Origin: Bacteroidota bacterium
GTDB lineage: Bacteria; Bacteroidota; Bacteroidia; B-17B0; Aurantibacillaceae
Assembly (NCBI GenBank): GCA_021156365.1
Contig: JAJNDK010000005.1
Location: 1 to 64,000, forward strand
Length of the DNA stretch: 64,000 nt
Reading direction: 5' to 3'
Within the stretch, counting starts at the first letter, position 1; each line of letters opens with the position of its first letter. A model generated the notes under the pieces. That model made no database searches. It was not told the DNA's origin and was given only the letters and a program-made list of their open reading frames with translations. A program made the translations under genes and the position numbers. Below, in pieces: positions 1 to 54,034 of the stretch.

Positions 1-3000
1 CCCAAGTGGTACAATCACCGTAACCAACCCGAACGGTGCTGTCAACCTCAATGCACTTACCAACTACAGCGTTACATGGACAGCAAGCGGGACAAGCGGG
101 TTCTTCGATGTACTCTATAGTGTGAACGGTGGTACAAACTACACTGCTGTTGCAACAAACATCAGCGGGACAAGCTACAACTGGAACGTGAACAACAACC
201 CGAGCACTAACGTATACGTACGTGTAAGGGATAACCAGAACACATGCCGCAAGGATGGAAGTGATGCGGCAAATACAATTAATGCGGCAACTCCTATAGT
301 TACTGCTCCTAATGGTGGAGAAGTTTGGAATGTGAGTACCTCGCAGAATATTACCTGGAATCCTGCCTCCTTATACGGCCCGGCTTTCATAGAATACACT
401 ACCGATAATGGTGTTAACTGGAATATCGTAGTGGCTTCTACACCGAATACCGGAACTTATGCATGGACAGTTCCATTTACACCTTCTCCACAATCCAAAA
501 TAAGGATCAGCAACGTTGGTAACCCATCTTTGAATGATGTTAGCAATGCCAACTACACTATCCAGATCCCGACACCAGTAATCACTGCTCCTAACGGAGG
601 AGAAACATGGTATGCAGGTGAGAACAGGAACATTACCTGGACACCTTCGACCTTCTTTAGCTCGACTGTTAACCTGGAGTATTCTTTGGATAACGGTACT
701 ACATGGGTTACGATCGCGAACAACCGTCCGAACAACGGTAGCTATGCATGGACGCTTCCAAATATCAACTCGGCAAGTGCATTGATCCGCGTCAGCAATA
801 GCACCAATACTGCTTATTATGATGTAAGCGACGCGCTGCTGACATTGCGTCCGTATGTACGCCTTATCACTCCGAACGGTGGAAATATCCTCGGCTCCTG
901 TACACAAACAACCATTTCGTTTGAGAAAGCGCCTACCTACACCAGTTTCAATATCGAATATTCGATTAACAACGGCGCTAACTGGACTGCTATCCAAACA
1001 AGTGCAACTTATACCAGCACCGTTAATAACTACAACTGGTCTATTCCAAATAATCCGTCAACGCAGGTACTCGTAAGAGTTTACCCTGTAGGCCAGCTCC
1101 CATTGGCCGACCAGAGCGATGCGGTATTTGAGATCAAAAAAGCGGTTACGCTCATTCAGCCTAACTATGGTGGCTTATTGACAATAGGTTCCAGCTACCT
1201 GGTGAAATGGCAGAGTGATGGTATTTCCAACCTTTATGACCTGGCTTATTCTACAGCCGGGCCTGGCGGGCCATTTACGAATATCCAAATCGGATACAAT
1301 ACCGCAACCAATACCTTTAACTGGACAGTCCCAAATGCTCCATCGACCAACTGTTACTTCCGTATCAGGGATAATATCAACTCCTGTAAAGAAGACATTT
1401 CCGATATGGCATTTACGATCTCATCTGCTACCAATCCTATAACAGTGACGGCTCCGAATGGCTCCGACTCACTGGGTGCATGTCAGAGCTACAATATCAC
1501 ATGGACTGAACCGGGAGCTGCTATCGGAAACTATAACATCTCTTACTCTATTGATTTTGGCACGAACTGGATCCCTATCGTATCCAACTATGCAACAACA
1601 TCCGGTTCTTATGGATGGACTGTTCCAAACATCAATGTGGCCGGTGCTTTGATCAGGGTTCAGTCAGGCTTAAATCCACTGGTGTTTGATTACAGCAACG
1701 CCTTGTTCGTGATTCAGCCAGGAAGGTTGTATACCAATACTGACGTAAGCATTTGCTCCGGTGGTTCTGTACAGTTGAATACTACAGGTGGAGTTAACTA
1801 CTCGTGGGCTCCGACTGCCGGATTAAGTAATCCTACTATCGCGAACCCTATAGCTACTCCGGCTTCTTCAACTCAATACATCGTAACTTCAACCAGCTCC
1901 GGCTGTTCTATAAGAGATACGGTTATGATCACGGTTAATCCTAACTCCGGTCTTACCGCTTCTGTTTCCATCAGCCCGAACACAAGCACGGCTATCTGCG
2001 GCGGCACTCCTGTATTGTATACAGCTACACCGAACAATGGCGGCGCTACACCTTCTTATCAATGGAAAGTGAACGGCACTAACGTTGGAACGAATACATT
2101 CACCTACTCTACTTCAACTCTGAACAACGGAGATGCAGTGACCTGTGTGATGACTTCGGCGCTGCAATGCGTTGCCAACAGCCCTGCTACTTCGAACTCG
2201 ATCGTGATGACGGTGAACCCGAACGTAACTCCTTCGGTTGCGATCTCCACACCTCAGACAAGCATCTGCTCAGGTACCAACGCAGTGTTCACAGCAGCAC
2301 CTGTAAACGGTGGCGGTTCACCTTCGTACCAATGGAAGAAAAACGGTGTGAATGTAGGATCAAACGCAAACACATACCTCAACAATGGTCTCGTTAATAT
2401 GGATGTGATAAGTGTTGAGTTAACATCAAATGCAAGTTGCGCGAGTCCATTGGTTGTATTATCGAACTCTATCCAGATGACGATTAATCAAAGCACTACA
2501 CCATCCGCTGTGATCTCTGCAAGTGCGACAACTATCTGTAGCGGAACAGCTGCAACTTTCACTGCGATAGCAACCAATTCGGGAACTACGCCTTCTTATC
2601 AGTGGAAAGTGAACGGAACGAATTCCGGTACCAACTCGAATACTTTCACTTCTTCTTCATTGCCGAACAATGCCAGCGTAACCTGTGTGGTGACTTCGAA
2701 TGCAGCTTGTAACACAGTTCCTACCGCAACTTCGAATGCGATCGTGATGACAGTTACATCGCCGCCTGCTGCTCCGGTAGCATCCAGCAACTCGCCGGTA
2801 TCGACAAACGGAACGATCAACCTGTTCGCATCCACTATTGCAGGTGCAGGCTATACCTGGACAGGGCCGAACGGGTTCAGCTCTTCGGCTCAGAATCCTG
2901 TGATTTCAAGCGCTACAATAGCGATGAGCGGTACTTACTCGGTAACAGCAACAATCAATACATGTTCGGGAACTGCCGGAACAACATCAGTGACGGTAAC

Positions 3001-52185: not shown

Positions 52186-52260
52186 GAATAAAAGAGCAGG
52201 AACAGCAGGTTTTGTGTTTTTTTGACGTCTAACTTATAAAACCACTGAACCTGCCTGCAA

Positions 52261-52989
52261 ATGAACACTTATATAAGGACATTGAAAATTTTTACACGCT
52301 TGCTTTCGGGCCTTTTTGTGCTTTCGGGTTTCACTTTCTCCGGCCCTGAAAAAGACATAAGCATTCATGTGAAACCGGTATTTGGTAAACAGGACCTGCT
52401 GCTTGATAAAAAAACCTATATCACCGCTAACCATGATACCATATCCGTGAGCAAATTGCGTTTTTATATTTCAGGGATCAAAATTCTGTTCAGAGATAAT
52501 TCAGTGTACACAGAAAATAATTCTTATCACCTCATCGATGCGGAAGAGGAACAAAGCCTGCGGATCAAACTGACGCAGGTGCCTCAAAAAGAGATCGCCG
52601 GTTTGCATTTTAATATCGGTGTCGACAGTCTTGCCAGTGTTTCGGGTGCGCTGGACGGCGACCTGGATCCGGTAAAAGGAATGTACTGGGCATGGAACAG
52701 TGGATATATTAATGCAAAACTTGAAGGAAAAGATCTTACGAAAGGTATAGAGGAAAATGAATTTGAGTTTCATATCGGTGGTTATCTCCCGCCCTATCAA
52801 TCGATACGACAAGTCCATCTCACCACTACCAAAGAGGAAATTACCCCGGCAGAAATAATAGTGATCGCAGATGTGGAGGCCTGGTTCAGTTACATCTCCC
52901 TGAAAAAGACTAACAGAATTGTGATACCCGGAGCAGAAGCGGTGAAGATGGCTGATGATTACACTAAAATGTTCCGTCTTGAAAACTAA
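52261..52989 (+). CDS. MbnP-like copper-binding secreted protein
   Basis: 242 residues with an N-terminal export signal (about 1-27). The family hallmark 'PVKGMYWAWNSGYINAKLEG' (about 139-158) is present, together with 'NTISVSKLRFYISGI'-type N-terminal strands and a late 'DVEAWFSY' Trp. In characterised MbnP a Trp is oxidised to kynurenine by the di-haem partner MbnH and takes part in Cu(I) binding. The next gene, overlapping by 35 bases, is exactly such a di-haem protein, so the pair is translationally coupled. No methanobactin precursor or MbnB/C biosynthesis genes are in this window. Periplasmic copper binding is inferred from the family. Confidence 0.82.
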   Translation: MNTYIRTLKIFTRLLSGLFVLSGFTFSGPEKDISIHVKPVFGKQDLLLDKKTYITANHDTISVSKLRFYISGIKILFRDNSVYTENNSYHLIDAEEEQSLRIKLTQVPQKEIAGLHFNIGVDSLASVSGALDGDLDPVKGMYWAWNSGYINAKLEGKDLTKGIEENEFEFHIGGYLPPYQSIRQVHLTTTKEEITPAEIIVIADVEAWFSYISLKKTNRIVIPGAEAVKMADDYTKMFRLEN

Positions 52990-54034
52990 GCTCAAAGCCC
53001 TGTGCATTGCCCTGTGTGCTCCCTTACTGATTTTTTGCACAGGCTTTTTTCTCTCGTCGTTTTCGGAAGAACCAAAGGCGGAGATCAAATTTGTAGTGCC
53101 CAAAGGCTGGCCCAAACCGGTATATGATTTTTCGAAAAACCCGGTAACACCTGAAGGATTCGCGCTTGGCAAAAAACTATTCTTCGATCCCCTTCTTTCC
53201 AAAGACAGCTCTACCTCCTGCTCTACCTGTCATTTGCAGTTCACCAATTATACGCATGTGGATCATGCTTTGAGCCATGGTATAAACGGATTGAAAGGAA
53301 CCCGCAACACCCTTTCGATCATGAATCTTGCCTGGAGCAAAACTTTCATGTGGGATGGCGGCGTGAACAATCTTGAAGTACAGCCACTGGCACCGATCAC
53401 CAGTCCGGTGGAAATGGACAATACACTGGAGAATATCGTACTGAAGCTGAAGCGCTCAACTTCCTATCAGAAAAAATTCCAAAAAGCATTCGGCGATAAT
53501 ACAGAGATTACCGGGCAGCGGGTGCTGAAAGCCCTGGCACAGTTCATGGTTTCGATACAAACTTTCAATTCGAAATACGATCATATGATGCGAAAAGAAA
53601 AAGGAGCTGAGTTTACGGAACAGGAGAAGAACGGTCTGAAACTGTTCAGGCAGCATTGTGAATCCTGTCACAAAGAGCCTTTGTTTACCAACAATGACTA
53701 TGAATACAATGGCCTGGAACCGGATCAGAAATTGAAAGACGGAGGTCGCATTAAGATCACGCATAACAAAAGTGATTCTCTTAAATTCAAAGTCCCATCC
53801 CTGCGTAATATTGAAGTTTCGTATCCTTATATGCACGACGGGCGTTTCCGGAACCTGGAAATGATGTTGTTCCATTATACCAATGGCATTGCGAAATCGG
53901 AGTTCCTGTCTTCCAAATTATCCAAACCCATCACTATGGATGAGCAGGATAAGAAAGACCTGATCGCTTTCCTGAAAACACTGACCGACGATCGTTTTCT
54001 ACATGATAAGCGGTTTTATTATTCTGCTGATTAA
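52955..54034 (+). CDS. Di-haem MbnH/MauG-type cytochrome c peroxidase-like protein
   Basis: 359 residues, ATG start at 52955, which overlaps the upstream gene; a TTG at 52979 is the alternative. A signal or lipoprotein-like segment ('LLIFCTGFF') covers about residues 15-40. Two CxxCH motifs, C89-x2-C92-H93 and C235-x2-C238-H239, bind the two haems. 'GLKGTRNTLSIMNL' and 'YMHDGRFRNLEMMLFHY' are the standard MauG/CcpA blocks. Paired with an MbnP gene, it is expected to oxidise a Trp of that protein via a bis-Fe(IV) state; an ordinary cytochrome c peroxidase is the alternative. Confidence 0.88.
   Translation: MITLKCSVLKTKLKALCIALCAPLLIFCTGFFLSSFSEEPKAEIKFVVPKGWPKPVYDFSKNPVTPEGFALGKKLFFDPLLSKDSSTSCSTCHLQFTNYTHVDHALSHGINGLKGTRNTLSIMNLAWSKTFMWDGGVNNLEVQPLAPITSPVEMDNTLENIVLKLKRSTSYQKKFQKAFGDNTEITGQRVLKALAQFMVSIQTFNSKYDHMMRKEKGAEFTEQEKNGLKLFRQHCESCHKEPLFTNNDYEYNGLEPDQKLKDGGRIKITHNKSDSLKFKVPSLRNIEVSYPYMHDGRFRNLEMMLFHYTNGIAKSEFLSSKLSKPITMDEQDKKDLIAFLKTLTDDRFLHDKRFYYSAD

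Follow-up and report, generated by a model that had tools for sequence, protein, structure and literature searches.

A putative kynurenine-dependent copper(I) protein and its maturase as probable distant members of a small ECF-sigma regulon in a Bacteroidota bacterium

The adjoining mbnP and mbnH genes of a Bacteroidota genome, found in a stretch of 64,000 nucleotides that was analysed as a whole (the window), probably encode a kynurenine-dependent copper(I) protein and its maturase and act as trans members of a small regulon governed by an ECF sigma factor encoded on another contig, C19 (probability about 0.6). A first-pass annotation had given the pair a stand-alone copper-handling or otherwise undefined role. 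That assignment is probably wrong: the partners of the pair appear to be the genes of the C19 cassette, which shares its promoter, and membership of a three-promoter ECF regulon likely replaces the stand-alone reading.

Table 1. Positions in the window of the mbnP-mbnH pair, its predicted promoter and the residues discussed in the text.
Feature	Position	Strand	Description
Predicted ECF-sigma promoter of mbnP-mbnH	52205..52232	+	GCAGGTTTT-N12-CGTCTAA
mbnP	52261..52989	+	242 aa, exported MbnP-fold protein; N-terminal hydrophobic stretch, reads as signal peptide
Met141-Tyr-Trp143-Ala-Trp145	52681..52695	+	WxW motif with candidate Cu ligand Met; kynurenine predicted at Trp143
His171	52771..52773	+	candidate Cu ligand, assigned by conservation
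mbnH	52955..54034	+	359 aa, di-haem enzyme of MauG/MbnH type; hydrophobic stretch at the N-terminus
First haem motif CSTCH (89-93)	53219..53233	+	from sequence; aligned with homologues
Second haem motif CESCH (235-239)	53657..53671	+	from sequence; aligned with homologues
Tyr308	53876..53878	+	aligns with Tyr of 6e1c (MbnH) and Met of the classical peroxidase 1iqc

The identities of both genes, the fold of MbnP and its conserved residues were directly established, as was the cassette that accompanies such pairs in relatives. MbnP had been named from a hallmark motif, and the name held: the motif GMYWAWNSGYIN was found, and the protein matched Pfam PF20243 at 165 bits (cut-off 27, E 2e-48). An AlphaFold model built from an input that included 57 homologues had a mean pLDDT of 88. 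Its best match in the PDB, and the sole strong fold match there, was 7l6g, the MbnP of Methylosinus trichosporium (Foldseek E 3e-7; Z 16.0 over 208 residues, 14% identity); the next entry reached Z 5.1. As a sequence query against the PDB, window MbnP did not find the OB3b MbnP, which was reached with a Deinococcus homologue as intermediate. Against TIGR04052, a narrower equivalog model of proteobacterial type, it scored 40.7 bits, below the cut-off of 140. Window MbnP belongs to the MbnP family in the wider sense and is not a TIGR04052 equivalog. The mature protein contains no Cys. At residue 161 (window 52741-52743) it has Lys, where 53 of 58 alignment rows have Cys; in the mature MbnP of relatives there is frequently no other Cys than this, or just one more.

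The di-haem MbnH/MauG type proposed for the second gene was likewise supported. Its product scored 178 bits against CCP_MauG (PF03150, E 3e-52) and 213 bits against the MbnH family model TIGR04039, below the equivalog cut-off of 363, and phmmer matched it to 6e1c, a 'Di-heme enzyme' (E 2e-38) that we take to be MbnH of M. trichosporium OB3b. It is MbnH-like and lies outside the TIGR04039 equivalog. Grouping with ordinary cytochrome c peroxidases, which the first-pass annotation had named as an outcome that would speak against its proposal, was not what we saw: the protein scored with the MbnH family, and Tyr replaces Met at position 308. This Tyr is weakly diagnostic because two other CCP-like proteins of the host genome share it. 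The reported 35-base overlap of the two genes was confirmed for an mbnH start at the ATG at 52955; an alternative TTG start at 52979 would shrink it to 11 bases. The gap between mbnP and mbnH was 10 bases or less in 65 of 73 pairs of relatives, the genes usually touching or overlapping.

The neighbours of the pair are a bestrophin (PF25539) and a FecR protein, and the host belongs to the Bacteroidota, both as first annotated. Neither neighbour was retained as a functional partner: in sister genomes no close orthologue of either was found, and in relatives neither lies near the pair. Two bestrophin homologues elsewhere in the host genome are reported to have a TAA in frame within the part that was matched (G000:C3:236901-237902 and C9:263274-264281). 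The absence of a methanobactin locus, noted from the window, was supported by a search of the genome for mbnB: no gene of methanobactin type was found, and the sole MNIO enzyme is ChrH-like and encoded on contig C13. With no mbnB adjoining the pair, a methanobactin operon was rejected. The ChrH-like enzyme (L087, G000:C13, 597-1709, minus strand) scored 481 bits against a cut-off of 600. Its gene is preceded by one for a 70-aa peptide ending in YCPPCGMG (1746-1958, minus strand), a weak match to the chryseobasin precursor ChrA, and the two likely form a RiPP locus.

The host genome contains three MbnP genes in all, two of them on contig C16 together with one more MbnH. The C16 locus (L068, G000:C16, 8056-12160, minus strand) carries a second MbnP type and encodes MbnP, MbnH, a 124-aa protein, an outer-membrane barrel candidate and a second MbnP. 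TonB/ExbD lie upstream, and a comparable gene order was seen in genome G003 (L226). No ECF-type promoter site was found upstream of the C16 locus.

MbnP was present in 52 of 60 related genomes. Orthologues of the window pair in Bacteroidota are frequently found within a conserved cassette, in the order ECF sigma factor, small anti-sigma candidate, LTXXQ protein, MbnP, MbnH and secreted YHYH protein. The anti-sigma candidate has about 90 residues and one hydrophobic segment, the LTXXQ protein has a single hydrophobic segment at its N-terminus together with conserved His and Cys, and the YHYH protein carries a T9SS tail. Among 73 pairs on named Bacteroidota contigs, the exact order from ECF to MbnH was found in 34, LTXXQ directly before MbnP in 7 further pairs, and no adjacent cassette in 27. 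YHYH was the next gene in 38 pairs and lay within three genes in 13 more (51/73 in total), counted by domain alone since the T9SS tail would also catch multicopper oxidases. Some clusters also contained a T9SS-tailed multicopper oxidase (11 of 86 loci), a redoxin, a CotH protein or an arylsulfotransferase. At loci L183, L184 and L191, the ECF, anti-sigma and LTXXQ genes were followed directly by YHYH with no MbnPH between, so MbnPH seems to be an interchangeable module of the cassette. At another locus, in a relative (L073, G029:C33, 9461-10518, plus strand), MbnH lay between two YHYH genes as two ORFs of 246 and 94 aa, through a frameshift or sequencing error.

The two small cassette proteins would act as anti-sigma factor and sensor. 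A profile of the LTXXQ protein matched Spy best in the PDB (E 3e-4) and ZraP at E 0.08, with no match to CnrX; because of these matches, we call it a sensor by position and family only. A PDB fold search with a YHYH model returned T9SS tails and beta-sandwich matches, with nothing specific outside the sorting tail. Gene neighbourhoods were reportedly analysed in the 2021 MbnP structure paper. A literature search for YHYH together with MbnP or with copper found nothing, and an earlier report of the YHYH/ECF link may exist; as far as could be searched, the ECF/LTXXQ/YHYH gene set is widespread in Bacteroidota and apparently undescribed. A Zn site of His/Asp type has been predicted for YHYH (PMC7824862).

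A common promoter, CGMARGAA-N14-CGTCTAA, was recognised across the phylum in the regions upstream of the cassette anti-sigma and YHYH genes. At the loci examined, 19/44 anti-sigma, 17/72 YHYH and 3/12 multicopper oxidase genes had the pattern CGNARGA-N15-YGTCTAA in the 150 bp ahead of them. It preceded 1 of 88 MbnP genes, many of which are operon-internal, and 4 of 744 other genes, all four CotH-like and within such clusters; the opposite strand gave 0. Across the 60 relatives, this pattern had 26 matches versus 6 for its reversed form, the majority ahead of anti-sigma or YHYH genes; three (L178, L179, L193) lay upstream of exported arylsulfotransferase-like genes.

In the host, contig C19 carries ECF, anti-sigma, LTXXQ and YHYH genes in order next to gltX, with YHYH directly after LTXXQ. 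When the 5.3 Mb host genome was scanned with GCARG-N16-CRTCTAA, exactly three matches were obtained (reversed control 0): one each ahead of the anti-sigma gene and the YHYH gene of C19, and one ahead of window mbnP. The pattern was refined after the window site had been seen, and base composition predicts about two chance matches per genome (P ~3e-5 for a given 150 bp); weight is therefore put on the place of the three matches and not on their number. An earlier pattern, GMARG-N16-CGTCTAA, gave two matches in the host genome (window and C19 YHYH) and one in the control. These genome-wide scans used patterns, and a matrix was scored over 145 kb. Trained on other genomes, the matrix gave 22.1 for the C19 YHYH site, 16.7 for the window site and 16.6 for the C19 anti-sigma site, and nothing else in the 145 kb exceeded 8.9, the next best score in the window. 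With the -35 and -10 columns only, the window site scored 11.3 versus 9.7 for another site nearby. Both the promoter and its genome-wide specificity were directly established.

Further points against assigning the pair to the regulon are that the window -35 element, AGCAGGTT, deviates from the phylum consensus and that the host genome (98.7% complete) encodes other ECF factors as well. The window site matches the host-type -35, GCAGGTTTT, which it shares exactly with the C19 anti-sigma gene, and a -35 of this host type, GCAAGTT, stands before the ECF, anti-sigma and YHYH genes of the sister genome G002. The combined promoter data suggest that the C19 sigma factor controls the window promoter.

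If the ECF-like site were coincidental, the genes could form a stand-alone copper pair that functions as it does in other bacteria, under a housekeeping or copper-responsive promoter. Most of the 27 cassette-free pairs of relatives have no such site upstream, nor do the pairs nearest to that of the window, L091 and L093. We nevertheless consider this unlikely: the window site is one of three genome-wide, the other two lie in a cassette of exactly this gene family, and the cassette-free MbnP genes at L078, L097 and L114 also carry an ECF-type site upstream.

The chemistry proposed for the pair was examined at the level of single residues. M141, W143, W145 and H171 were invariant in 58/58 aligned Bacteroidota MbnP homologues, and GMYWAW of the window protein aligned with GMAWNW of 7l6g. 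Loss of the modifiable Trp, the other outcome named in advance as contrary to the first annotation, was thus seen in none of the homologues. The copper ligands were assigned from conservation and a remote alignment, His171 by conservation and not by residue-by-residue mapping onto the 7l6g copper site. In OB3b MbnP, the first Trp of WxW is reportedly converted to kynurenine, and the Cu(I) site is said to involve His and Met. The four invariant residues and the 7l6g alignment indicate that window MbnP retains the requirements of this known chemistry, and kynurenine formation is predicted at Trp143. Homology and copper gene contexts suggest copper as both ligand and signal. One such context was direct: on a Deinococcus radiodurans plasmid (L199, NZ_OV024759.1, 3914-7427, plus strand), genes for MbnP, a cytochrome-c peroxidase, an unknown product, CopC and CopD follow one another.

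Alternatively, Trp143 may be modified to a non-copper product, with kynurenine or another Trp-derived group serving redox or surface chemistry and the regulon acting as an envelope stress response. The best match of the LTXXQ profile was Spy, and LTXXQ proteins include Spy and CpxP; moreover, most of the partners, namely the YHYH, CotH and arylsulfotransferase proteins, belong to the cell surface and have no known role with copper. Against this, Met and His are invariant alongside WxW, a multicopper oxidase is present in some clusters, copC and copD stand beside the Deinococcus pair, and OB3b MbnP reportedly binds Cu(I). Cu(I) was also found in CorA, a studied protein of similar type (PMC3912023). 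We regard a non-copper product as rather improbable and retain the copper(I) reading.

The origin of the window pair was approached through the same-genus genome G002. At the orthologous place, its gene order is gltX, YHYH, MbnH, MbnP, LTXXQ, anti-sigma and ECF, with identities to the C19 region of 88% for gltX, 74% for YHYH, 59% for LTXXQ and 81% for ECF. Comparison of the two orders places the absence of MbnPH in the window genome (G000) exactly at the C19 cassette. In a joint MbnP and MbnH tree, the window pair grouped with L091 and L093 (support 100/99), and its grouping with the G002 cassette pair was rejected (p-AU 1e-96). The absence of MbnPH from C19 and the separate lineage of the window pair were both directly established. 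No MbnP/MbnH pair was found in the fumarase neighbourhood of G002. Its separate lineage suggests that the window pair is a substitute, acting in trans and connected to the same sigma factor. In the simplest reading, C19 lost its native pair, whose place was taken in trans by one of different lineage, with the host promoter gained or kept. That the window pair is instead the native C19 pair, moved and fast evolving, would fit both the lack of exactly MbnPH at C19 and the promoter type retained in the window, and is very improbable, being strongly rejected by the tree unless the sister genome itself swapped its pair.

Under the regulon reading, the C19 ECF sigma factor would be held by its one-helix anti-sigma factor, whose periplasmic partner would be the LTXXQ protein with its conserved His and Cys. 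A change in the state of this putative sensor would release the sigma factor, which would then drive three promoters: those of its own anti-sigma/sensor genes, of the T9SS-exported YHYH protein and of window mbnP-mbnH. MbnH, acting as a periplasmic di-haem enzyme, would oxidise Trp143 of MbnP to kynurenine. The modified MbnP would bind Cu(I) through Met141 and His171, with the kynurenine nearby, and so keep Cu(I) in the envelope. Cnr-type sensors respond to excess metal. CorA is copper-repressed (PMC3912023).

An MbnP/MbnH pair outside a methanobactin locus is of a known kind and not new. A 2013 description presents such pairs as conserved far beyond methanobactin producers (PMC3621798). It defines the 'Metallo-mystery pair' (TIGR04039/TIGR04052, GenProp0940), of which the window pair is an example whose proteins fall under both equivalog cut-offs; the text consulted contains no mention of an ECF/LTXXQ/YHYH cassette (PMC3621798). 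The window pair resembles OB3b MbnP/MbnH (7l6g; 6e1c) in its MbnP fold (Z 16), its GMxWxW motif and its adjoining di-haem partner. It differs in the low identity of its MbnP (14%), which lacks the four-Cys motif, in the absence of methanobactin genes and, apparently, in its regulation.

CorA/CorB and MopE/SACCP of methanotrophs also combine a di-haem partner with conversion of Trp to kynurenine in a mononuclear Cu site, a feature predicted only for the window protein; the CorA and MopE site consists of two His, water and kynurenine and has no Met (PMC3912023). In the 2013 paper, the CorA and MopE sequences are described as not markedly similar to MbnP (PMC3621798). The regulatory genes on C19 and in relatives have a different counterpart. 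CnrYXH of Cupriavidus metallidurans comprises an ECF sigma factor, a small one-helix anti-sigma factor and a periplasmic sensor of LTXXQ type, and the cassette would combine the same three functions in one operon. Unlike CnrYXH, the targets are MbnPH and YHYH and not an efflux pump, the window pair lies apart from the ECF operon, and among PDB entries the profile of the putative sensor finds Spy and ZraP and not CnrX. We know of no evidence that CorA/CorB or MopE/SACCP is ECF-driven.

These results suggest, tentatively and at a little under even odds, that a dedicated Bacteroidota metal switch of ECF sigma factor, anti-sigma factor and LTXXQ protein runs a surface copper system composed of MbnPH, a YHYH protein exported by the T9SS and, in some cases, a multicopper oxidase and CotH, and that the host, having lost its native MbnPH, brought a remotely sited pair of different lineage under the control of that sigma factor. 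The copper part of this proposal is drawn from homology, the multicopper oxidases in 11/86 clusters and the Deinococcus copC/copD row. The promoter, the candidate sensor and the co-regulated surface proteins would make the role of MbnP/MbnH outside methanotrophs directly testable in ordinary Flavobacterium strains, and the regulon would offer an initial way into the function of YHYH proteins.
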